From NCBI RefSeq assembly GCF_016756535.1, contig NZ_AP023247.1, forward strand, positions 5,022,501 through 5,086,500: 64,000 nucleotides of DNA, in the 5' to 3' direction. The stretch is from Mesorhizobium sp. 131-2-1. Lineage in GTDB: Bacteria > Pseudomonadota > Alphaproteobacteria > Rhizobiales > Rhizobiaceae. This document shows positions 4,977 through 18,919 of the stretch, piece by piece; the first letter of the stretch is position 1, and each line of letters begins with the position of its first letter. The notes beneath the pieces are model-generated. The model did not search any database. It saw nothing but the letters and a program-made list of their open reading frames with translations, and had not been told where the DNA came from. A program made the translations under genes and the position numbers.

Positions 4977-5108
4977 CGATACTCCGTTGGGCCTCCGCCT
5001 CGCACACGTCGCCTCGTTCCGGCGATGCCGGCGCAGTTGCGGTCGAGGCATTGCATTTGTCTTGTCCTGGCAGCCTAGGCTCGCGAAAATTATATGACAA
5101 GAGAAAAA

Positions 5109-5126
5109 TTTGTTAGAGCGTACAAA
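5109..5126. promoter_or_regulatory. Candidate TetR operator between the dehydrogenase and its regulator
   Basis: TTTGTTAGAGCGTACAAA is an inverted repeat with arms TTTGT and ACAAA around an 8-base centre, 25 bases before the preferred TetR start. A second, wider inverted pair (TCTTGTC 5060-5066 and GACAAGA 5096-5102) also lies in the divergent gap. The size suits a TetR dimer. Which of the two is bound is not decided by sequence. Confidence 0.45.
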
Positions 5127-5150
5127 AAATCGGTCAGTTATAAGAATCGC

Positions 5151-5789
5151 ATGGCAACCAAAGCGAAAAAGCAGAAGACCCGGATCGAAGATATCCGGCG
5201 GATCGAGCTGATCGAGGCAGCGCATCGCATCTTTCTGCGTGATGGGCTGAAGGGCCTGACGACGACCCGGATATGCCATGAGGCTGGCATGTCGCAGGGT
5301 ATTTTGACCTATTATTTCAAGGACAAGGACCAGGTCCTCTTTGAAATGGTGCGGTTCGCCAATCGCCTTCTGATGGATGCGGTTGTGGTCAATCTCCGTC
5401 AGGCAGAGACCCGATGGGATCGTTTGATGGCGATTGTCGACGGCAATTTTCCGGAAGAGAAATTCGAACGCAACACGGCGAACGCCTGGATCTCCTTCTA
5501 CGCGGAAGCGGCGCACAACCCCCGCTACGCACGTCTGCAGCAGCTGTTCTACAAGCGGCTGCGGTCGAACATAGGCTCGGCGCTTTCGCCATTTTGTGCG
5601 AAGGGCGAGATCGACCATTTCGTGCGTGGCTTTGCCGCCATGCTCGACGGCCTTTGGCTGAGGCGGGGGCACTCCGACGACGATATCTCACGTTTGGAGG
5701 CGAGGACGCTGCTCATCGAATATTCGGAAAAGACGCTTGGCGCTGACATGACAACGAAGCTGAAGACGCTTCAGTTGGAAGCGGCCTGA
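5151..5789 (+). CDS. TetR-family regulator, BetI-like
   Basis: 212 residues from ATG 5151. The N-terminal helix-turn-helix reads GLTTTRICHEAGMSQGILTYYFKDKDQV. The C-terminal part (RLQQLFYKRLRSN, FAAMLDGLWLRRG) matches the ligand domain of BetI-type regulators. An earlier in-frame ATG at 5094 would add 19 lysine-rich residues and would run through the palindrome at 5109-5126, so I prefer the later start. It probably controls the divergent alcohol dehydrogenase. Its stop codon TGA (5787-5789) lies inside copy 2 of the 54-bp repeat. Confidence 0.85.
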   Translation: MATKAKKQKTRIEDIRRIELIEAAHRIFLRDGLKGLTTTRICHEAGMSQGILTYYFKDKDQVLFEMVRFANRLLMDAVVVNLRQAETRWDRLMAIVDGNFPEEKFERNTANAWISFYAEAAHNPRYARLQQLFYKRLRSNIGSALSPFCAKGEIDHFVRGFAAMLDGLWLRRGHSDDDISRLEARTLLIEYSEKTLGADMTTKLKTLQLEAA

Positions 5790-5877: not shown

Positions 5878-6930
5878 ATGGACGCCAATATCGCTCTCAT
5901 CGACACAGGATCGCCATCACGCGGCATGCATCCTTGCCTGTGCACGGGCCGCATCCAAGAAACCGGTGACGTCGTCACCCTGGTGTTCAAGAGGGCCGAT
6001 GGCCGGGCCTTCGATTTCCTAGCTGGGCAGTTCGTCACCATCCGTTTCTCCTCGGGTGGCCAGACGTACTCACGGGTGTTCACCATTGCCTCACCGCCAA
6101 CCCGGGCGGACCGCATCGCCTTGACGATCAAGGCGGCTGCAGACGGCAGGGCGACGCGCATCCTGCACGACCACTTCGGCGAAGGCAGCGCTGTCGAGAT
6201 CAGCGACGCCGGCGGCGACTTCACGCTGGAGGGCCGCGCCGTAGAGAAGGCCCTGTTCCTCTGCGCCGGAAGCGGCATCACGCCACTGATGTCGATGGTG
6301 CGTGACCTGCACGACAACGGCGAGGATCTGGACGTCGCGTTCATCCAATGCGCCCGCACGCCGGACGACATCCTTTTCGGCCATGAACTCCGGATGCTCT
6401 CCGAGAGCATGCCGAAGCTGCGCGTCGAAACGGTGTGCAGCCAGGCATCGGGCTCCCCCGATCCGCGTGTCATCGGCCGGCTGGATATGGCGCGGCTGGC
6501 GCGGCTTGTTCCGGACGCGACGGCACGCGCGGTCTTCCTGTGCGGACCTGCAGGCTTCATGCAGACGATGCGCCGTCACATGGTCGAACTCGGGGTTCCG
6601 GCCGGACGGATTTTCGAGGAAGCCTTTGGCGCCGTGCTGGCGACCGCGAAGAGGATGTCTCCGACGGCGAAGGCTATTGTCGCCTTCGAGCGTTCCGGTG
6701 TCCGCTGTGAGGCCGGCGACAACGCCACGATCCTGGAACTGGCTGAAGCCGAGGGTGTCTACATCGACACATCGTGCCGGATGGGCGTGTGCGGCACCTG
6801 CAAGGTCAAGCTGCTCGAAGGCGAGGTTGACTTGAACGATATGGGCGGCCTGTCGGATATGGAGCGTCAGGACGGCTTCATCCTCGCCTGCTGCAGCACG
6901 CCAAGGGGCGACATTGCCATCGACCTTTAG
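5878..6930 (+). CDS. Flavin- and 2Fe-2S-containing oxidoreductase (ferredoxin-NAD(P)H reductase, GbcB/phthalate-reductase-like)
   Basis: 350 residues. The order is an FAD-binding beta-barrel (about 15-110, with YSRVFTIAS), an NAD(P)-binding domain (LFLCAGSGITPLMSMV and FLCGPAGFMQ), and a C-terminal plant-type 2Fe-2S ferredoxin domain. Its ligands are C300, C305, C308 and C338. Such proteins pass electrons from NAD(P)H to oxygenases, including the GbcA-type Rieske oxygenase of betaine demethylation. No oxygenase alpha subunit is visible, so the acceptor may be the small Rieske protein at 9052 or the HD protein at 9457. It lies 88 bases after the TetR gene. Confidence 0.85.
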   Translation: MDANIALIDTGSPSRGMHPCLCTGRIQETGDVVTLVFKRADGRAFDFLAGQFVTIRFSSGGQTYSRVFTIASPPTRADRIALTIKAAADGRATRILHDHFGEGSAVEISDAGGDFTLEGRAVEKALFLCAGSGITPLMSMVRDLHDNGEDLDVAFIQCARTPDDILFGHELRMLSESMPKLRVETVCSQASGSPDPRVIGRLDMARLARLVPDATARAVFLCGPAGFMQTMRRHMVELGVPAGRIFEEAFGAVLATAKRMSPTAKAIVAFERSGVRCEAGDNATILELAEAEGVYIDTSCRMGVCGTCKVKLLEGEVDLNDMGGLSDMERQDGFILACCSTPRGDIAIDL

Positions 6931-6951
6931 AGCCCGTCGTCGCTCTGGTTC

Positions 6952-7806
6952 TCACGACGTCATCAATTTGAGCGCCTTGAGCAGGCGAACATGGGTGTGG
7001 GAATGGTGGTGCCTGACATGCACGGCTGAATAGATGGGATGTGAGATCTTCGGCGCATCGGCAACGAGCTGCACCACGCCCTCCTGCCGCAATTTCGTCG
7101 CCACCGTCTCGGTGACGAAGGCGGTGCCACCCCGGCTGCGCAGGAGATAGGCAACGGCGCCGCCGTTTCCGGTCGAGACCGGGCTGTTTTCCAGCTCCGG
7201 CAGCATCTGCTTGTGGGCACGGTTGAAGAAGGCCGAGTAATTGGCACGGATGTAGTCCGCCGCCGTAATCTCGCCGAAGGCAAGGCCGCGCGTCGAAACC
7301 ATGACGAAGTTCTCCTCGGCGATCTGTTCGTAGTGCATGTCCGGCAGGTGCTGCGGTGAATAGAGCACCGCCAAATCGAGGCTGCCGGTGGTGAGGTCGA
7401 GGATCATCTGGTTCGAGTAGTCGATCTCGACATAGATCGCGAGCTTCGGCATCGTTGCCCGCACCCATTCCAGCCACCCTTCCAGCACGCGCTCGTATAG
7501 CTCGAACTGGATGCCGATGCGGATCAGGCGATCGAACTTGCCGACCGATTGGATTTCGCGGCGGGCGTCGAGCCAGCGCAGCCTGACCGCACGCGCATGT
7601 TCCTCGAACCTCAGGCCTGCGACCGTCGGCTCGGTGCCGCTCTTGCCGCGGATGAAAAGCTGCTTGTCCAGCAGCGCTTCCAGCGTGCGGATGCGGCTCG
7701 AAACGGTTGACTGGGTGATGCCCAGCCGCTCCGCCGTCCTGTTGAAGTTGCGGGTTTCGATCAAGTCAAGGAACGTATCCAGGAGTTCGATCTGCATTTC
7801 GGCCAT
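6952..7806 (-). CDS. LysR-family transcriptional regulator
   Basis: 284 residues with a winged helix-turn-helix at the N-terminus (NFNRTAERLGITQSTVSSRIRTLEALL), followed by a periplasmic-binding-like effector domain. It is transcribed away from the amidohydrolase-Rieske-HD operon, and the gap carries a perfect T-N11-A palindrome. It is therefore the probable activator of that operon. The start could be ATG 7806 or the ATG three codons later. The effector cannot be read from sequence. Confidence 0.88.
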   Translation of the reverse strand: MAEMQIELLDTFLDLIETRNFNRTAERLGITQSTVSSRIRTLEALLDKQLFIRGKSGTEPTVAGLRFEEHARAVRLRWLDARREIQSVGKFDRLIRIGIQFELYERVLEGWLEWVRATMPKLAIYVEIDYSNQMILDLTTGSLDLAVLYSPQHLPDMHYEQIAEENFVMVSTRGLAFGEITAADYIRANYSAFFNRAHKQMLPELENSPVSTGNGGAVAYLLRSRGGTAFVTETVATKLRQEGVVQLVADAPKISHPIYSAVHVRHHHSHTHVRLLKALKLMTS

Positions 7807-7860
7807 CCAACGGAAAAATCCCGCAACGGCTATCGCTTTTTCACCGCGCTCCGCAACGGG

Positions 7861-7879
7861 TAATCGGATTCTTCGATTA
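7861..7879. promoter_or_regulatory. LysR-box palindrome
   Basis: TAATCGGATTCTTCGATTA has perfect 6-bp arms (TAATCG, CGATTA) and fits the T-N11-A rule at its core. It lies 54 bases upstream of the LysR start and 87 upstream of the amidohydrolase start. This is the normal place for the recognition half-site of a divergent LysR activator. Confidence 0.6.
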
Positions 7880-7966
7880 ATACCCTGTCCCTGGTTGCGT
7901 TGCCGGTTCGGCCGCCGAAGCGCACGGTCGCTTCATCCATCCCACCCCATGGCAGGCGAAGCATCC

Positions 7967-9052
7967 ATGTTCATCGTCGACACCGACGTTCACAATTACT
8001 GGTCCAGCGCCGAGGTGCTGCTCCCCTATCTCGAACCCTATTGGCGCGATTTCCTGGTGCGCGGCGAAAAACCCGGCCCAACGGGAAGCTTTCCGCATGG
8101 CCACCGCCCCTGGCTGCATCCGGAGGGCTTTTCGCGGCACGATATCCGCCCTCAGACCGAGGAAGACAACTACCTGATCATGAAGGAGAAGCACCTCGAT
8201 CTCTACGGTATCGACGTGGCGATCCTCACCGCTGACGAGCCTCTGGAAGCCTCGACGCTGGCCAACTACCACTATGCCAACGCGCTGGTGAAAGCCTACA
8301 ATGATTACATGATCGACTGGTGGCTGCCGAAAGACAGCCGCTTCAAGGGATCGATCATCATTTCGCCGACCGACCCGCATGGCGCGGCAGCAGAGATCCG
8401 GCGGCTCGGCGGCCACAAGGACATCGTCCAAGTCCTGGCAAGCCACGGCTCTCAGCGCCCCTATGGCGATCCTTTCTACCATCCGATCTACGAGGCCTGC
8501 GCAGAGGTCGGCCTGCCCTTCGCCATCCATTTCGGCGGCCAGGGCGGTGTCAACCACAACGCGGTCGCCAGCGGCCCGACCGCCTACTACTGGGAAACGC
8601 ACGCCCTCCTCAGCCAGCCGGCGATGACCCATGTGGTCAGCATGATTTCCAACGGCGTCTTCGAGAAATATCCCGACCTCTATTTCGTCGTCATCGAGTG
8701 CGGCGTGTCGTGGGTGCCGTCGCTGATGTGGCGGCTCGACGCCAACTTCAAGGCGCTGCGCAAGGAGACGCCGTGGCTGAAGATGCTGCCGTCGGAATAT
8801 TGCCGCCGCAACATCCGCTTCAGCACCCAGCCGCTCGAGCAGCCGCAGAACGTCAAGCACCTCTGGGAGACGCTGGAGCACATGGACGGGCAGAACACGC
8901 TGCTTTTCGCCTCCGACTATCCGCACTGGGACTTCGACGCGCCGACCAATCTGCACATCCCGCCGGCATGGCGCGAGAAGGTCATGGGGCTGAATGCGCT
9001 GGAGGTCTACAAGCGCATCGAGGCTCCGGCCGCCACAGCGAGGGTCGCCTGA
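7967..9052 (+). CDS. Amidohydrolase-family metalloenzyme (Amidohydro_2, ACMSD-like)
   Basis: 361 residues from ATG 7967, which follows GGCAGG; an in-frame ATG also exists at 7949. The metal site opens as DTDVH (residues 5-9) rather than HxH, a variant seen in this family. It continues with a histidine in PFAIHFGG and ends with LFASDYPHWD, whose aspartate is the last ligand. Members hydrolyse or decarboxylate cyclic and aromatic acids. The substrate is unknown. The stop TGA overlaps the Rieske start by one base (TGATG), so the two are made together. Confidence 0.82.
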   Translation: MFIVDTDVHNYWSSAEVLLPYLEPYWRDFLVRGEKPGPTGSFPHGHRPWLHPEGFSRHDIRPQTEEDNYLIMKEKHLDLYGIDVAILTADEPLEASTLANYHYANALVKAYNDYMIDWWLPKDSRFKGSIIISPTDPHGAAAEIRRLGGHKDIVQVLASHGSQRPYGDPFYHPIYEACAEVGLPFAIHFGGQGGVNHNAVASGPTAYYWETHALLSQPAMTHVVSMISNGVFEKYPDLYFVVIECGVSWVPSLMWRLDANFKALRKETPWLKMLPSEYCRRNIRFSTQPLEQPQNVKHLWETLEHMDGQNTLLFASDYPHWDFDAPTNLHIPPAWREKVMGLNALEVYKRIEAPAATARVA

Positions 9053-9429
9053 TGAGCGCCGCCGCGACCGCTCCCGCACTCACCTTCGCCTGCAAGACTG
9101 CCGACGTCGCGGTGGGCAAGCCGAGGATCGTTCCTTACGGCCGCCTCAGCGTCGGCATCTTCCAGCTCGAGGATGGCTACGCCGCCCTGCTCAACGTCTG
9201 CCCGCATCGGGCGGGCCAGCTTTGCGAAGGGCCGATATCCGGCACCACCAGGCAAACGGACAAGACCGAGTTCGTCTACGAGCGCGCCGGCGAGATCATC
9301 CGCTGCGCCTGGCATGGATGGGAGTTCGACATCCGGTCCGGCAAATGCCTGGTCGACGACAAGCTGAAGGCGCGCACTTTTCCAGTGCATGTCGACGGCG
9401 ACGACATCTATCTCGAAATGGGCCGCTGA
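9052..9429 (+). CDS. Small Rieske 2Fe-2S protein (ferredoxin type)
   Basis: 125 residues, one Rieske domain with no catalytic domain. Ligands are C50 and H52 (CPHRAGQLC) and C85 and H88 (CAWHGW), the standard C-x-H and C-x2-H pairs. An insertion of about 20 residues between the two pairs (GTTRQTDKTEFVYERAGE) is longer than in most ferredoxins. It could be an electron carrier between the reductase at 5878 and an oxygenase. It shares a one-base overlap with the amidohydrolase and is 27 bases before the HD gene. Confidence 0.85.
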   Translation: MSAAATAPALTFACKTADVAVGKPRIVPYGRLSVGIFQLEDGYAALLNVCPHRAGQLCEGPISGTTRQTDKTEFVYERAGEIIRCAWHGWEFDIRSGKCLVDDKLKARTFPVHVDGDDIYLEMGR

Positions 9430-9456
9430 CGGCAACCAGCAATTGGAGTTTCGACA

Positions 9457-10080
9457 ATGGAAACCGTGAAGTTCACCCAGATGAAGGACGGCGACCGCGA
9501 GGATTATGCCTTCCTGACCGAACACGAAATCGAATTTGCGGCCGGCACGGCAGATCGGCTTCTGGCGGCGATGGTCGAACTCGACAAATCGCTGTCAGGC
9601 TACAAGGTGACGCGGCTCGGTCATTCGCTGCAGGCCGCCACGCGCGCCTGGAACGCTGGCGCCGACATCGACTGGGTGGTGTCTGCACTGCTGCACGACA
9701 TCGGCGACATCTACGCTCCCTACAACCACGACGAATACGCTGCCGCGATCCTGCGCCCCTTCGTGCGCGAGCAATGTGCATGGGTTGTCGAGAAGCACGG
9801 CGACTTTCAGCTGGTCTATTATGGCGAGCACGTCGGCGCGAACCCGCACAAGCGGGATGCCTTTAGGGACAGCGAGTATTTCGACGACTGCGCGGAGTTC
9901 TGCGAAAAATGGGACCAGTCGAGCTTCGACCCGGACTACCCGACCCGGCCGCTGGATCTCTTCGCCCCAATGGTGCGCGAGGTCTTCGCCCGCAAGAGCT
10001 ATGATCCGGCAGTGGTCCGCACCGGCCTACGGGAAGCCCTGTCGAATGCCGCGCTCGCCGCGGCGCGTTCGGCGATCTAG
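9457..10080 (+). CDS. HD-domain protein of the COG4341 type, possible diiron oxygenase
   Basis: 207 residues. Likely metal ligands are H56 (GHSLQ), H80-D81 (LLHDIGD), H91 (YNHDEY), H114 (EKHGDF) and D153 (KWDQ). This is the H...HD...H...H...D set of two-metal HD proteins. The 24-residue spacing from the first His to the HD pair matches PhnZ, a mixed-valent diiron oxygenase. The family is usually labelled 'predicted phosphohydrolase' without proof. Position 118 is Q where, from memory, PhnZ has its phosphonate-binding lysine, so a phosphonate substrate is not supported. A Rieske protein in the same operon hints at redox chemistry. Confidence 0.75.
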   Translation: METVKFTQMKDGDREDYAFLTEHEIEFAAGTADRLLAAMVELDKSLSGYKVTRLGHSLQAATRAWNAGADIDWVVSALLHDIGDIYAPYNHDEYAAAILRPFVREQCAWVVEKHGDFQLVYYGEHVGANPHKRDAFRDSEYFDDCAEFCEKWDQSSFDPDYPTRPLDLFAPMVREVFARKSYDPAVVRTGLREALSNAALAAARSAI

Positions 10081-12584: not shown

Positions 12585-12614
12585 TTTTTTGTTGATTGAT
12601 CCGTCAATAAAAAA
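12585..12614. promoter_or_regulatory. BetI operator
   Basis: Arms TTTTTTGTTGA (12585-12595) and TCAATAAAAAA (12604-12614) are inverse copies at 10 of 11 positions around an 8-base centre. The core TTGATTGATCCGTCAATA resembles the TTGA...TCAA palindrome I recall for the E. coli BetI site. It ends 28 bases before the betI start, so BetI would repress its own operon, with choline relieving repression. Confidence 0.68.
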
Positions 12615-12642
12615 TAATCTCGCAGCGAGCCCGGATCCCAAA

Positions 12643-13233
12643 ATGCCGAAAATCGGAATGGAACCCTTGCGCCGCAAGGCGCTCATCGACGCGACGATCT
12701 CTGCGATCGGCGAGCGCGGCTCGCTGGACGTGACGATGTCGGAGATCGCCGGCCGCGCCGGCGTGTCGTCAGCGCTTGCGCACCACTATTTCGGCGCCAA
12801 GGACGAGCTGTTGTTCGCGACGATGCGGCACATACTGGCGGAGCTCAACACCGACACCCGGCGCGCCCTTCGCGCCACCGGCACGGCGCGCCAGCGTGTC
12901 TCGGCCGTGGTCGCGGTCAGCTTCTCCGACGACCAGTTCCAGCCCGAGACCATCGCCGCATGGCTTGCCTTCTATGTCGAGGCGCAGAAGTCCTCGGCTT
13001 TGCGACGCCTGCTCAAGGTCTATGCCAGGCGGCTGCATTCGAACCTGATGAGCGGGCTGACCGGGATCCTGTCCAGGCGTGAAGCGGATCGCGTCGCGGA
13101 AGCGACGGCGGCGCTGATCGACGGGCTCTACATCCGGCGCGCGCTGAAGGACGGCGTGCCGGGCGCGGCGACGGCCATCGCGCTCGTCGAAGACTATCTC
13201 GAAACCAAGCTCAGCGGACGGAGCCTGCCTTGA
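12643..13233 (+). CDS. betI: HTH-type repressor BetI
   Basis: 196 residues, the usual BetI length, starting [20 protein letters not shown]. The TetR helix-turn-helix is [22 protein letters not shown]. In-frame codons exist upstream to 12589 but would overrun the operator, and the homologous start is clear. It responds to choline and represses the bet genes. Its stop overlaps the TTG start of betC by four bases (TTGA), so it is the first gene of a coupled operon. Confidence 0.93.
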
Positions 13234-14759
13234 CGACCGGACGGCCAAATTTCCTGATCGTCATGGTCGATCAGCTCAACGGCACGCTGTTCCCCGACGG
13301 GCCGGCGGAGTTCCTGCACGTGCCGCATCTGAAGGCGCTCGCCCAGCGCTCGGCGCGCTTCGCCAACAACTACACCGCCTCGCCGCTCTGCGCGCCGGGC
13401 CGCGCCTCCTTCATGAGCGGGCAACTGCCGTCGCGCACCGGTGTCTATGACAATGCGGCCGAATTCACCTCCTCGATCCCGACTTTCGCGCATCACCTGC
13501 GCGCCGCCGGCTACTACACCTGCCTGTCGGGAAAGATGCATTTCGTCGGGCCGGACCAGTTGCACGGCTTCGAGGAGCGGCTGACCACCGACATTTATCC
13601 CGCCGATTTCGGCTGGACGCCGGACTATCGCAAGCCCGGCGAGCGCATCGACTGGTGGTACCACAATCTGGGCTCGGTGACCGGCGCCGGTGTCGCCGAG
13701 ACCACCAACCAGATGGAGTATGACGACGAGGTCGTCTTCCTGGCGACGCAAAAGCTCTACCAGCTGTCGCGGGAGCAGGACGATGCGGATCGACGGCCGT
13801 GGTGCCTCACCGTTTCGCTGTCGCATCCGCACGACCCCTACGTCGCGCGCAAGCAGTATTGGGATCTCTACGAGAATTGCCAGGCGCTCGATCCGGAGAC
13901 CGGGTTCATCGCCCATGACGAGCAGGATGCGCACTCGCAGCGGCTCTACCGCGCCAGCGACTATGCTGCTTTCGAGATCACCCGCGAGCAGGTGCGCCGT
14001 TCGCGGCGCGGCTATTTCGCCAACATCTCCTATGTCGACGACAAGCTCGGCGAGCTTCTCGACGTTCTCAAGCGCACCCGCATGCTCGACGACACCGTCA
14101 TCCTGTTCTGCTCGGATCATGGCGACATGCTCGGCGAGCGTGGCCTGTGGTTCAAGATGAGCTTCTTCGAAGGCTCGGCGCGGGTGCCGCTGATGATCGC
14201 CGGCAAGGGCGTCCCGGCCGGGCTGATCGAGACGCCGGTCTCCAATCTCGACGTGACGCCGACGCTGTGCGACCTCGCCGGCATCGACATGAGCGCGATC
14301 GCGCCATGGACCGACGGCCAGTCGCTGCTGCCGCTTGCCAATGGCAGGCAGCGCAGTGCGCCGGTGTTGATCGAGTATGCGGCCGAGGGCTCCTACGCGC
14401 CGCTGGTGGCGATCCGCGACGGCAAATACAAGTTCGTCCATTGCGAGCTCGACCCGCCGCAGCTGTTCGATCTCGAGGCCGATCCGCTCGAGCGCGAAAA
14501 TCTCGCCGACGATCCGGCGAACGCGGCCCTGGTGGCGGCGTTCATGGACAAGGTCCGGGCGCGCTGGGACATGGCCGGCTTCGACGCCGCCGTGCGTGAG
14601 AGCCAGGCGCGCCGCTGGGTCGTCTATCGGGCGCTGCGCAACGGCGCCTATTACCCGTGGGATTTCCAGCCGCTGCAGAAGGCCTCGGAGCGCTACATGC
14701 GCAACCACATGAACCTCGACAATCTCGAAGAGAGCAAACGGTATCCGCGAGGCGAATGA
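13230..14759 (+). CDS. betC: Choline sulfatase
   Basis: 509 residues. The sulfatase signature C54-A-P-G-R (matured to formylglycine) is in [10 protein letters not shown], and metal ligands include D14 (MVDQ) and the pair in CSDHGDMLG. The conserved C-terminal tail (YPWDFQP...ERYMRNHM) is characteristic of BetC. It hydrolyses choline-O-sulfate to choline and sulfate. The start is TTG 13230, with GGAG 8 bases upstream. It overlaps the next gene by four bases (ATGA). Confidence 0.94.
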
Positions 14760-15757
14760 TGACCACCCTTGTCCCCTCCCTCGATCACCTAAAGCAGGCC
14801 TATGCCGTCACCTCGACGGCAACGCAGGTGACGCCGCTGCTGGAATCGACAGCGCTCGCCCGCGAAACCGGTGCGGCCCGCGCCTTCGTCAAGCCGGAAT
14901 CGCTGCAATGGGCCGGCTCCTTCAAGGTGCGCGGCGCCTATTGGCGGCTGAAACAGCTTTCGCCTGATGCAGCGAAGAAGGGCGTCGTCGCATACTCGTC
15001 GGGCAATTTCGCGCAAGGGCTGGCGGCGGCCGGCCAGGCGCTCGGCATTCCCGTCACCATCGTCATGCCGATCGACGCGCCGGCCGCCAAGCGTGACGCC
15101 ACCGCTGGCTATAGCGCGCGCGTCGTGCTGACCGACCATGGCGATCGTGCACGCGAGGAAGTTGCGGCCGCCAAGGCGCGCGAGATTGCCGAAACCGAGG
15201 GCCTCACCCTGCTGCATCCCTTCGACGATCCCGAAATCGTCGCTGGCCAGGCCGGCGCCGGGCTGGAGGCGCTCGACCAGTTGGCGGCAAAGAATACTCA
15301 CGCAGACCTGGTGTTCTGCTCGGTCGGCGGCGGCGGGCTGATCGGCGGCGTGTCGCTCGCCTTCCACTATCGGTCGCCGAAGACCGAGATCATCGCCGTC
15401 GAGCCTGAAGGCTTCAACGGCATGGGCTCGTCGCTGGCGCATGGCGCCATCGAGACGATGCCGATCGGGCCGAAATCGATCTGCGACGGGCTGATGGCGA
15501 GGAAGCCCGGCGAAGCGCCCTTCGCGGCGGTGAGCGCGGCCGGCGTGCGCGGCGTCACCGTCGACGACGCTTCGGTGCGGCGGGCGATGAAGATCGCCTT
15601 CGAGCGGATGAAGCTGGTGCTCGAGCCGTCGGGCGCGGCGTCGCTCGCGGCGCTGCTTGGGGGCAAGGTGAACGTGGCGGGAAAAACCGTCCTTGTTGTG
15701 GCTACCGGCGGCAATGTCTCGCTCGCCGATTTCATGGCGCATATGAACAATGCTTGA
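14756..15757 (+). CDS. PLP-dependent threonine/serine dehydratase-like enzyme in the bet operon
   Basis: 333 residues, fold type II PLP enzyme. The Schiff-base lysine is K57 in SFKVRGAY, the substrate loop is SSGNFAQG (81-88), and the phosphate loop is GGGGL (191-195). No C-terminal ACT regulatory domain follows, so it resembles catabolic dehydratases or the ectoine-utilisation enzyme EutB rather than IlvA. It overlaps betC by 4 bases and betA by 8, so it is a true operon member. A link to serine or threonine released in betaine catabolism is only a guess. Confidence 0.85.
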
Positions 15758-17402
15758 AGCGGATTTCGTCATCATCGGCTCCGGCTCCGCCGGCTCGGCC
15801 ATGGCCTACAGGCTGTCGGAGGACGGCAAGCACTCGGTGATCGTCATCGAGTTCGGCGGCACCGATATCGGGCCGCTGATCCAGATGCCGTCGGCGCTGT
15901 CGATCCCGCTCAACATGAGCCTCTACGACTGGGGCTTCGCCAGCGAGCCGGAACCGCATCTCGGCGGCCGGGTGCTCGCCACCCCGCGCGGCAAGGTGAT
16001 CGGCGGCTCGTCCTCGATCAACGGCATGGTCTATGTGCGCGGCCATGCGCGCGACTTCGACCACTGGGCCGAGCAGGGCGCGACCGGCTGGGGCTTCGCC
16101 GACGTGCTTCCCTACTTCAAGCGCATGGAGGATTCCGACGGCGGCGAGGATGGTTGGCGCGGCAAAAGCGGCCCGCTGCATGTGCAGCGCGGCACGCGCA
16201 AGAACCCGCTCTACGGCGCCTTCGTCGAGGCCGGCCGCCAGGCCGGCTTCGAACTGACCGACGACTACAACGGATCGAAGCAGGAAGGCTTCGGCCCGAT
16301 GGAGCAGACCATTTTGGGCGGCCGCCGCTGGTCGGCCGCTAACGCCTATCTGAAGCCGGCTCTCAAGCGCAAAAACGTCACTCTGGTCAAAGGCTTCGCC
16401 CGCCGCGTGGTCATCGAGAATCAACGCGCCACCGGCGTCGAGATCGAAGCTAACAAACAGATTCAGGTCGTTAAGGCGCGACGTGAGGTGATCGTGGCGG
16501 CCTCGTCGATCAATTCGCCGAAGATCCTGATGCTGTCCGGCATCGGCCCGGGCGCGCATCTGCAGGAGAACGGCATCCAGGTCGTCGCCGACCGGCCGGG
16601 TGTCGGCCGCAATCTGCAGGACCATATGGAGCTCTACATTCAGCAGGAATCGACCAAGCCGATCACGCTGAATTCAGTGCTCAACCCGTTCTCCAAGGCG
16701 TTGATCGGCGCGCAGTGGCTGTTCTTCCGGACCGGTCTCGGCGCCACCAACCATTTCGAGGCGGCCGCCTTCGTGCGCTCGCAGGCCGGCGTAGACTATC
16801 CTGATATCCAGTACCACTTCATCCCGGCGGCGGTGCGCTACGACGGCAAGGCGGCGGCGAAGTCGCATGGCTTCCAGGCGCATGTCGGGCCGATGCGCTC
16901 GAAGTCGCGCGGCTCGGTGACGCTGCGCTCGCCAGATGCCCGCGCCAAGCCGGTGATCCGCTTCAACTACATGTCGCATCCGGACGACTGGACGGAGTTC
17001 CGCCACTGCATCCGGCTGACCCGCGATATCTTCGGCCAAAAGGCTTTCGACAGTTTCCGTGGCAAGGAGATTTCGCCGGGCAGCCATGTGCAGTCGGACG
17101 AAGATCTCGACGCCTTCATCAGGGACCATGCCGAAAGCGCCTACCACCCTTGCGGCACCTGCAAGATGGGACGCGCCGATGACCTCATGAGCGTCGTCGA
17201 TCCGGAATGCCGGGTGATCGGCGTCGAGGGGCTGCGGGTCGCCGATTCCTCGATCTTCCCGCGGGTGACCAACGGCAATCTCAACGCGCCTTCGATCATG
17301 ACCGGCGAAAAGGCCTCCGATCACATCCTCGGCCGCACGCCGCTGGCGCCGTCCAACCAGGAGCCCTGGATCAATCCACGCTGGCAGGTGGCGGACAGAT
17401 AG
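15750..17402 (+). CDS. betA: Choline dehydrogenase (GMC flavoprotein)
   Basis: 550 residues. The FAD-binding motif G10-S-G-S-A-G15 is at the N-terminus, GMC signature 1 is in [18 protein letters not shown], and signature 2 is in [17 protein letters not shown]. The active-site histidine is H466 in [10 protein letters not shown]. It oxidises choline to betaine aldehyde at the inner membrane. It overlaps the dehydratase by eight bases; betB follows after 53 bases. Confidence 0.94.
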
Positions 17403-17455
17403 AGCATTGTCAGCCGGGCACCCTCCCCGCCTGGCGACCATCAATGGAGAACCCC

Positions 17456-18919
17456 ATGCGCGCCCAGCCCACGGCATCGCACTATGTCAACGGCCGCTAT
17501 ATCGAGGACGAGGGCGGCGCGCCGCTGCCGGTGATCTATCCGGCGACGGGCGAGACCATCGCCACGCTGCATTCGGCAACGCCGAACGTGCTGGAGCTGG
17601 CGATCGAGGCCGCGCGCGCCGCGCAGCCGGCCTGGGCGCGGCTGAAGCCCGTCGAGCGCGGGCGCATCCTGCGTCGCGCCGCCGACATTCTTCGCGCACG
17701 CAATGCGGATCTAGCGCGCATCGAGACGCTGGACACCGGCAAGGCAATCCAGGAAACGCTGGTGGCAGATGCCCCCTCGGCGGCGGATTGCCTAGAGTAT
17801 TTCGGCGGCGCTGTCGCCGCCTTCAACGGCGAGGCGGTCGATCTCGGCGGGCCGTTTGCCTATACAAGGCGCGAGGCGCTCGGTGTGTGCGTCGGCATCG
17901 GCGCCTGGAACTATCCGATCCAGATCGCCGGCTGGAAATCGGCGCCGGCGCTCGCCATGGGCAACGCCATGGTGTTCAAGCCGTCGGAGAACACGCCGCT
18001 GTCGGCGCTGGCGCTGGCCGAGATCTACAGCGAGGCCGGCCTGCCCGACGGGCTGTTCAACGTCGTGCAGGGCTATGGCGATGTCGGCGCCGGCCTCGTC
18101 GGCCATGATGTCGTGGCCAAGGTTTCGGTGACCGGCTCGGTGCCGACAGGGCGCAAGGTGCTGTCGCTCGCCGGCTCGAAGATGAAGCACGCGACGATGG
18201 AGCTCGGCGGCAAGTCGCCGCTGATCGTGTTCGACGACGCCGATCTCGAAAACGCCATCGGCGGCGCCATGCTCGGCAATTTCTACTCCACCGGCCAGAT
18301 CTGCTCCAACGGCACGCGCGTCTTCGTGCAGAAGGGCATCCATGACCGTTTCGTCGACCGGCTGGTCGAGCGCACCAAGAAGATCCGCATCGGCGATCCG
18401 CTCGATCCGGAAACGCAGATGGGTCCGCTGGTCAACAAGGCGCAGCAAGAGAAGGTGGTCGGCTACATCGCCGCCGGCAGGCAGGATGGGGCGACGCTCG
18501 CCTGCGGCGGCAACGTACCGTCGCTGCAGGGTTTCGACGGCGGCTTCTTCGTCGAGCCGACGGTGTTCACCGGCGTCACCGACGGGATGCGCATCGCCCG
18601 CGAAGAGATCTTCGGGCCGGTGATGAGCGTGCTCAAGTTCGACAGCGAGGACGAGGTCATCGAGCGCGCCAATGACACCGAATTCGGCCTGGCAGCCGGA
18701 GTGTTCACGCGCGACCTGCCGCGTGCCCACCGCGTCATCGCCGAGTTGCAGGCCGGCACCTGCTGGATCAACGCCTACAATCTGACGCCAGTGGAAATCC
18801 CCTTCGGCGGCGTCAAGCAGTCGGGCATCGGGCGCGAGAACTCGCTTGCCGCGCTGGCGCTCTATTCGCAGTTGAAGGCGATCTATGTCGAGACCGGGGA
18901 CGTGGCGAGCCCGTACTAA
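17456..18919 (+). CDS. betB: Betaine aldehyde dehydrogenase
   Basis: 487 residues from ATG 17456, the classic BetB length; GGAGA lies just upstream, and an earlier ATG at 17444 is less likely. The catalytic general base is E249 in MELGGKSP and the nucleophile is C283 in GQICSNGTR. It completes choline to glycine betaine using NAD(P). Last gene of the bet operon; the next gene converges 9 bases away. Confidence 0.95.

Follow-up and report, generated by a model that had tools for sequence, protein, structure and literature searches.

AROs are dinuclear Mn/Fe or Fe/Fe monooxygenases, exemplified by SfbO and AibH2 (PMC10811679; PMC7782822; PMC10401708, as far as their accessible parts describe them), and were discovered through the small Rieske donor encoded next to them (Liu et al., 2024, PMC10811679). 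According to the accessible parts of PMC10811679 and PMC10401708, the natural substrates of the newly found members cannot be deduced from their neighbor genes. HD-domain oxygenases such as PhnZ and TmpB are described, in the accessible part of PMC8177086, as using a mixed-valent Fe(II)/Fe(III) site that requires no external reductant. Here we describe an operon of Mesorhizobium sp. 131-2-1 in which genes for a predicted ARO, a small Rieske ferredoxin and an HD-domain protein lie in a row. The stretch of DNA analyzed, hereafter the window, is 64 kb long (C1:5022501-5086500) and belongs to a 7.1-Mb genome. We propose that the operon encodes an ordered two-oxygenase pathway acting on a quaternary ammonium compound, with the ARO step preceding the HD step, and we put the probability of this reading at roughly 0.57. 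ARO-Rieske systems and the PhnY/PhnZ and TmpA/TmpB pairs are already known; for the pairing of an ARO with an HD-type protein we found no report in the open-licence literature.

The gene at 7967-9052 (+ strand) was taken for a downstream amidohydrolase in an earlier interpretation made from the letters alone, which we call the sequence-only reading. The encoded protein matches Amidohydro_2 (PF04909) with an E of 2e-44. Among proteins of solved structure it scores highest against 8sm7 (284 bits) and 8sm6, which is SfbO (271 bits), followed by 8sm9, 8sm8, the AibH2 of 6m1w/8ful (156 bits) and AibH1 (140 bits). Outside the ARO papers, the top PF04909 enzyme among the matches listed is 5-carboxyvanillate decarboxylase, at 80 bits. 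The metal ligands given for AibH2 in the accessible part of PMC7782822, namely D25, H27, H211, E265, D337 and H340, align to D7, H9, H188, E244, D317 and H320 of the window protein. All six are kept in 137/137 ARO stretches that span them, a count that pools collections in which some genomes occur twice and leaves out the 4 of 141 high-scoring pairs that do not span the six positions. With AROs as its closest relatives and every ligand in place, the protein is most likely an ARO-type dinuclear monooxygenase, and its prediction as a downstream hydrolase is not supported. The sulfonate-binding residues of SfbO, R232 and R235, correspond in the alignment to H212 and L215; a sulfonate substrate like that of SfbO was considered and is unlikely, because this pair is not kept. 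Of the other SfbO residues named in the accessible part of PMC10811679, W341 is matched by eye, and position 280, which by our count does not read as Tyr, was given no weight.

The HD-domain protein is encoded at 9457-10080 on the same strand. Its ligand set, H56, H80-D81, H91, H114 and D153, with an H-to-HD spacing of 24, is as the sequence-only reading had described it, and the six residues are identical in 80/81 family rows, the remaining row being gapped there. When the PDB was searched with a profile of 15 family members, only PhnZ and TmpB were significant (E 1e-12 to 2e-10), with the next match at E 0.05. No HD phosphatase structure was matched, and there was no MIOX structure among the six matches up to E 10. 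An hhalign comparison of the family with 20 TmpB-type sequences (matches to NF049941, five of them over its cut-off) gave a probability of 99.4 and an E of 4e-21 with all six ligands aligned; the TmpB-type frame was located by the pattern H-N23-HD, so that this spacing is built in and the other ligands are not. By these comparisons PhnZ and TmpB, both oxygenases, are closer relatives of the HD protein than any structurally characterized HD phosphatase is, and the HD protein is most likely a diiron oxygenase, predicted to act after the ARO. It is not TmpB or PhnZ itself, an assignment rejected by family cut-offs, by motifs that are described below, and by a separate true TmpB elsewhere in the genome (C1:2831943, 321 bits against a cut-off of 300).

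A search of 146 Mesorhizobium genomes found AROs of two types, A (96-100% identical to that of the window) and B (72-75%). Type A occurs in 21 of these genomes, and in all 21 the genes for a LysR-type regulator, the ARO, the Rieske protein and the HD protein are found together; an HD protein of at least 86% identity is present in exactly the same 21 genomes. The gene set is thus held together by more than chance, and the 21 genomes are related and count as few events. The sequence-only reading had proposed a co-occurrence survey as a way to refute its grouping of these genes, and the ARO-Rieske-HD set came through that survey intact. In 20/21 type-A loci the HD gene starts 20-63 bases after the Rieske gene; in the remaining one (L173) it starts ~1.1 kb after. 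One further locus (L056) has the LysR gene with HD alone and no ARO match there.

Beyond the genus, the HD family profile (E up to 1e-40) was found in 57/398 genomes of a phylum sample and in 23/121 of a family sample. Plasmids of Rhizobium sp. NXC24, CB3060 and CB3171 each have an ARO and an HD gene separated by ~400 bases. Saccharopolyspora rosea has ARO-Rieske-HD, and in a metagenome-assembled genome of an actinomycetote (Actinomycetota) the HD gene belongs to a gene row that runs divergently from ARO-Rieske, a single other gene intervening. HD was present in the fetched flanks of 6/80 named ARO loci, these being the best 80 of at least 592 confirmed and some of them lying on short contigs. 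A single clade of ARO-linked HD proteins was rejected by the tree (p-AU 0.0007, which is indicative, the group having been picked after the identities were seen). Therefore the ARO-HD pairing probably arose more than once, and in Actinobacteria it is apparently independent.

The gene between those for the two predicted oxygenases (9052-9429, + strand) encodes a small Rieske [2Fe-2S] ferredoxin (PF00355) with the motifs C50-P-H52 and C85-A-W-H88. A Rieske match lies within ~3 kb of the ARO in 73/80 named ARO loci (the best 80 of at least 592) and beside the ARO in 21/21 type-A and 25/25 type-B loci. Because HD oxygenases need no reductant and the Rieske protein stays with the ARO where there is no HD protein, it most likely serves the ARO, for which it is the predicted electron donor. 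The HD protein as electron acceptor of the Rieske protein was rejected on the published mechanism and the Rieske-ARO pairing without HD. At three loci (L159, L160 and L161) the Rieske gene is preceded by a tandem pair of ARO-like genes, an arrangement that recalls the AibH1H2 heteromer.

Upstream, at 5878-6930 (+ strand), lies a gene for a GbcB-like NAD(P)H-FAD-[2Fe-2S] reductase with FAD_binding_6, NAD_binding_1 and Fer2 domains (Pfam). The sequence-only reading was correct about this gene and its three domains, but the reductase adjoins the cassette in just 10/21 type-A loci. A reductase is found in 21/25 type-B loci, where it is 35-43% identical to that of the window and in the other orientation. 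Scored against NF058606 (GbcB), the window reductase gives 239 bits, below the cut-off of 500. At C1:410224 the genome has a GbcB-like match with a higher score (363 bits, still below the cut-off), near a 423-aa Rieske open reading frame, and therefore the window reductase need not serve glycine betaine demethylation. The window reductase probably supplies the Rieske protein with electrons, though not as an obligatory source. The sequence-only reading also noted that there is no conventional Rieske oxygenase alpha subunit, which is true at the locus; elsewhere in the genome other Rieske open reading frames occur, including the 423-aa one close to the GbcB-like reductase at C1:410-412 kb.

Two plasmid cassettes bear on the possible substrate. 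In Rhizobium NXC24 (L292) the order is reductase, LysR, ARO, Rieske, HD, a GMC choline-dehydrogenase-like gene, a choline-type binding protein gene and an aldehyde dehydrogenase gene. On a plasmid of Pseudomonas aeruginosa F045 (L295:5872-11829), LysR, a TauD/TmpA-like (TmpA/GBBH-like) oxygenase gene and HD are followed by genes for a choline-type binding protein, a GMC enzyme and an aldehyde dehydrogenase. The GMC enzymes of the two cassettes are 68% identical to each other and each 44% identical to the canonical BetA of the window, and the aldehyde dehydrogenases are 59% identical to each other and 36-39% to canonical BetB. Furthermore, each of the two GMC enzymes is accepted by PRK02106, the broad model for choline dehydrogenases, but not by the betA equivalog, and both aldehyde dehydrogenases are under the BADH cut-offs, whereas the window BetA passes both PRK02106 and the betA equivalog and the window BetB passes the BADH cut-offs. 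The simplest reading is that the two cassettes serve a similar pathway, with exchangeable hydroxylases, on a choline-like compound other than choline. The sequence-only hint at quaternary amines has become more likely with these choline-type genes behind both an ARO-HD and a TauD-HD cassette. No close copy of the NXC24 GMC gene was found in the Mesorhizobium genome, where the best match is 45% identical.

Type-B and other AROs adjoin genes for betaine-type or dipeptide-type transporters, MttB, DMGDH or BADH. On pSymA of S. meliloti 1021 (L291:6572-13132), a type-B ARO-Rieske pair occurs with LysR and reductase genes, followed by an aldehyde dehydrogenase gene whose product is over the PRK13252 betaine-aldehyde cut-off and just under that of TIGR01804. 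An open reading frame at this locus resembles a betaine-type binding protein by eye, and the strain would be a convenient model for work on AROs.

The HD family also occurs with other partners. We compared 81 HD loci, comprising 79 fetched regions from the phylum and family samples, a paralogue in the same genome, and the window. Encoded on the same strand were a PhyH 2-oxoglutarate oxygenase (8 loci), a TmpA/GBBH-like 2-oxoglutarate oxygenase (4), BKACE or carnitine dehydrogenase (16) and ARO-Rieske (2). These neighbor gene calls are approximate, with one or few members per neighbor cluster run against family models; of the TmpA-like partners tested, one was above the TmpA cut-off and two were below. 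All 12 of the 2-oxoglutarate oxygenase genes lie upstream of HD, with gaps of 3-76 bases. In a tree of 92 rows, 36/37 partnered HD proteins fall in one 49-row clade (support 99/96), and 38/51 unpartnered ones lie outside it. The paralogue, 71% identical to the window protein, is encoded at C1:390829-391443 (L003:9821-10444), between BKACE and carnitine 3-dehydrogenase genes. A relative of 70% identity on a Phaeobacter inhibens plasmid (L294:7001-9483) heads a row with sterol-desaturase-family and PanB-like genes, possibly one more case of an oxygenase partner.

The genes present, their conserved ligands, their linkage and the swapping of partners are shown by the data above; what we infer of metal content, oxygen chemistry, substrate and step order runs as follows. 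In the first step the ARO would act as an Fe/Fe or Mn/Fe monooxygenase, a role well supported by homology, and would hydroxylate a quaternary ammonium compound at a C-H bond. Electrons would pass from NAD(P)H to the reductase, to the Rieske ferredoxin and to the ARO, the reductase being the GbcB-like one here and perhaps an unlinked one in other genomes. In the second step the HD protein, as a mixed-valent diiron oxygenase, would bind what the ARO has hydroxylated and use another O2, without further electrons being supplied, to break the bond adjoining the carbon that carries the new hydroxyl group, in the manner of TmpB on hydroxylated 2-trimethylaminoethylphosphonate. Its product would probably be a shorter betaine, for instance glycine betaine. 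Likely substrates would have the form Me3N+-CH2-CH2-X, with X being COO- (beta-alanine betaine) or, alternatively, CH2-COO- (gamma-butyrobetaine, giving a carnitine-type intermediate).

A bolder version of this proposal would have two unrelated dinuclear oxygenases work in series. An ARO, possibly with a Mn/Fe site, would hydroxylate a betaine analogue, and a non-phosphonate HD enzyme would cut a C-C bond to yield glycine betaine; the first enzyme would be exchanged among three unrelated kinds, namely ARO with Rieske, PhyH and TauD/TmpA-like oxygenases, while the HD enzyme is kept, and one branch among the orphan AROs would gain its first natural substrate class. We advance this version tentatively, judging it somewhat more apt to fail than to hold.

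A number of observations weigh against the two-oxygenase pathway. The reaction of SfbO, as given in the accessible part of PMC10811679, is N-dealkylation, which is unlike hydroxylation of a chain. HD is found in 0/25 type-B loci (leaving out the contig-end fragment L162 and keeping the fragment L157), and 74/80 named ARO loci, again the best 80 of at least 592, have no HD in their fetched flanks. Of the cassette members the reductase is conserved least, and 11/21 type-A loci have none adjoining them. The HD protein is far under the cut-offs of the models that describe its nearest relatives (TIGR03276, 33.1/214.6; NF049941, 27.6/300; NF052439, 30.1/300). The YxxE gate expected before the first ligand is not found, positions 46-49 being L-S-G-Y, and after the fifth ligand the A-K-R-Y of 20/20 sequences in the TmpB-type set is replaced by H-G-D-F-Q, with Gln at the TmpB-type Lys position in 79/81 HD family rows. 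We take this Lys to be phosphonate-binding; its loss would be consistent with a substrate that bears a carboxylate or acetate group instead of phosphonate. Of the 81 HD loci, 51 have no listed partner within 1.8 kb, a class that is defined by tblastn queries and may hide other partners, and the wider family may therefore have other functions. HD genes of the carnitine loci (16) are paired with genes for enzymes that are themselves carnitine-consuming, an arrangement that the proposed pathway does not explain. Of the other 20 type-A loci, 3 (L169, L170 and L179) share the bet genes that lie downstream of the cassette in the window. Finally, the HD proteins of the NXC24 and F045 plasmids are only 48% identical, and their binding proteins are 55% identical to each other as compared to 50-51% to that of the window. 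The claim of one pathway in these two cassettes consequently rests on the two dehydrogenases, and the 48% identity has slightly lowered our confidence in the two-oxygenase pathway.

The alternatives differ in which protein receives the electrons and in what the HD protein does. In the sequence-only reading the reductase and Rieske protein supply electrons to an HD oxygenase, and the amidohydrolase hydrolyzes the product of that oxygenase. The oxygenase-like character of the HD protein, nearest to PhnZ and TmpB, has stood, and the Rieske gene does lie between the amidohydrolase and HD genes. The supply of electrons to it has not stood, given that HD oxygenases require no external reductant according to the accessible part of PMC8177086, that the Rieske protein remains with the ARO in all type-B loci, where HD is absent, and that the supposed hydrolase is closest to AROs and keeps their dinuclear ligands. 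We regard this arrangement as very improbable; the roles of the two enzymes are most likely to be swapped, with the ARO being the Rieske-dependent enzyme and the HD protein acting after it. Hardly credible is a mononuclear decarboxylase or hydrolase within an operon that is a loose gene set. PF04909 does include such enzymes (PMC10811679, in its accessible part), but six ligands kept without exception, Rieske adjacency across phyla and co-occurrence in every type-A genome argue against one here.

It is also conceivable, if unlikely, that the ARO and Rieske protein form a monooxygenase while the HD protein is a phospho- or thioester hydrolase that processes or salvages a pathway intermediate, and that in carnitine operons it replaces the betainyl-CoA thioesterase domain. 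Most known HD proteins are phosphohydrolases, as the accessible part of PMC8177086 states. The family sample of 121 genomes has two forms of carnitine dehydrogenase, a long one that includes a thioesterase part (38) and a short one that lacks this part (35), counted over 74 genomes with a match less the partial G438; G478 has its dehydrogenase and HD genes on different contigs. The short form is found in 10/11 genomes with an HD-containing carnitine operon as compared to 25/62 others. This is an association and not a general rule, since G441 has HD together with the long dehydrogenase and 25 short-form genomes are without such an HD operon, and we rejected HD as a replacement thioesterase on these grounds. 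A hydrolase would also leave HD beside PhyH, TmpA-like or ARO genes unexplained, and the family profile matches no HD phosphatase structure. A different fate for the first product, which we consider distinctly improbable, would have the ARO act as an SfbO-like N-dealkylase that hydroxylates the carbon adjacent to nitrogen and whose product splits into amine and aldehyde, with the HD protein and the dehydrogenases handling the fragments. SfbO releases sulfoacetaldehyde from N-alkyl taurines (PMC10811679, accessible part), and genes for a BADH-family aldehyde dehydrogenase, MttB, DMGDH or Oxidored_FMN (TMADH-like) lie near several ARO loci. However, the Arg pair of SfbO is replaced in the window ARO, and known HD oxygenases act on a stable hydroxyl-bearing carbon (PMC8177086, accessible part), which dealkylation would not leave.

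In the window, all five genes of the module are present as the sequence-only reading had placed them, and the closest named relatives of the cassette are in Mesorhizobium. The ARO and Rieske genes overlap by one base (TGATG), and 27 bases separate the Rieske and HD genes, also as first described. The LysR-type regulator (HTH_1 and LysR_substrate domains) is encoded at 6952-7806 on the - strand, divergent from the operon, and is present in 21/21 type-A loci. Between it and the ARO gene, at 7861-7879, is the palindromic LysR-type box TAATCGGATTCTTCGATTA (no strand assigned) that had been noted from the sequence. It recurs in all 21 type-A loci: 9 copies are exact, 4 differ by one change and 8 by two, and its 6-base arms remain matched in 19/21. 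The operon is probably under LysR control via this conserved palindrome.

Choline genes lie on both sides of the cassette, with a choline-binding protein gene upstream and a canonical betI-betC-(threonine-dehydratase-like)-betA-betB set downstream at 12589-18919. We considered these as cassette members and rejected them, as bet genes flank 4/21 loci and the Rhizobium cassette has a different choline-like set. BetI-type regulators are encoded twice in this region (5094-5789 and 12589-13233); control by two BetI proteins has been reported for Alphaproteobacteria (PMC12442346, accessible part). The gene between betC and betA (14756-15757) resembles threonine/hydroxyaspartate dehydratases, is under the cut-offs of all 17 models that it matches, and recurs in this position in three other genomes (L169, L170 and L179). 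At 134-741 there is a two-gene unit (73 and 129 aa, overlapping by 4 bases) that is toxin-antitoxin-like by eye and has no NCBIfam match at the strict limit of E 1e-30.

For one ARO branch, the link with an HD oxygenase-like protein and with genes of choline-type transport and oxidation offers a testable substrate class. If the proposed pathway is true, HD-domain oxygenases would extend beyond inositol and phosphonates, and similar pathways would be seen to use hydroxylases of unrelated chemistry, one having taken the place of the other. The labels 'amidohydrolase' and 'HD phosphohydrolase' are probably wrong in such clusters.

Compared with the described AROs, namely SfbO (8SM6), the Afipia protein B6JH23 (among 8SM7-8SM9), AibH1H2-AibG-AibF and PtmU3, the window system shares the PF04909 fold, the six ligands and the partnership with a small Rieske protein; a flavin/[2Fe-2S] reductase is a further common element at many loci. 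The three-component linkage of reductase, Rieske protein and ARO known from AibHGF is found in 10/21 type-A and 21/25 type-B loci. Unlike the known AROs, the window operon adds an HD-type protein, and its ARO lacks the SfbO Arg pair; the accessible parts of PMC10811679 and PMC10401708 mention no HD neighbors for AROs. Unlike AibH1H2, the window cassette has no gene for an AibH1-like second subunit. The reductase is GbcB-like, as in the glycine betaine monooxygenase GbcAB, but it is below the GbcB cut-off and there is no Rieske oxygenase gene at the locus.

On the HD side, MIOX is an HD-type diiron oxygenase that lacks the YxxE gate (PMC8177086, accessible part). The window HD protein likewise lacks the gate, and the annotation of its 70% identical relative on the Phaeobacter plasmid reads 'inositol oxygenase family protein', although the profile search returned no MIOX structure among its six PDB matches. 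The closest parallel is with TmpA/TmpB and PhnY/PhnZ, in which a hydroxylase gene likewise sits beside an HD oxygenase gene and the HD ligands align; the TmpA substrate is, like the one proposed here, a quaternary amine (PMC8177086, accessible part). The window operon differs from these pairs in having an ARO with a Rieske protein as its predicted hydroxylase, and an HD protein without YxxE and without Lys after the fifth ligand. In the pathway that we propose, the ARO and Rieske protein would replace the 2-oxoglutarate hydroxylase of PhnY/PhnZ and TmpA/TmpB, and the substrate would be a non-phosphonate.

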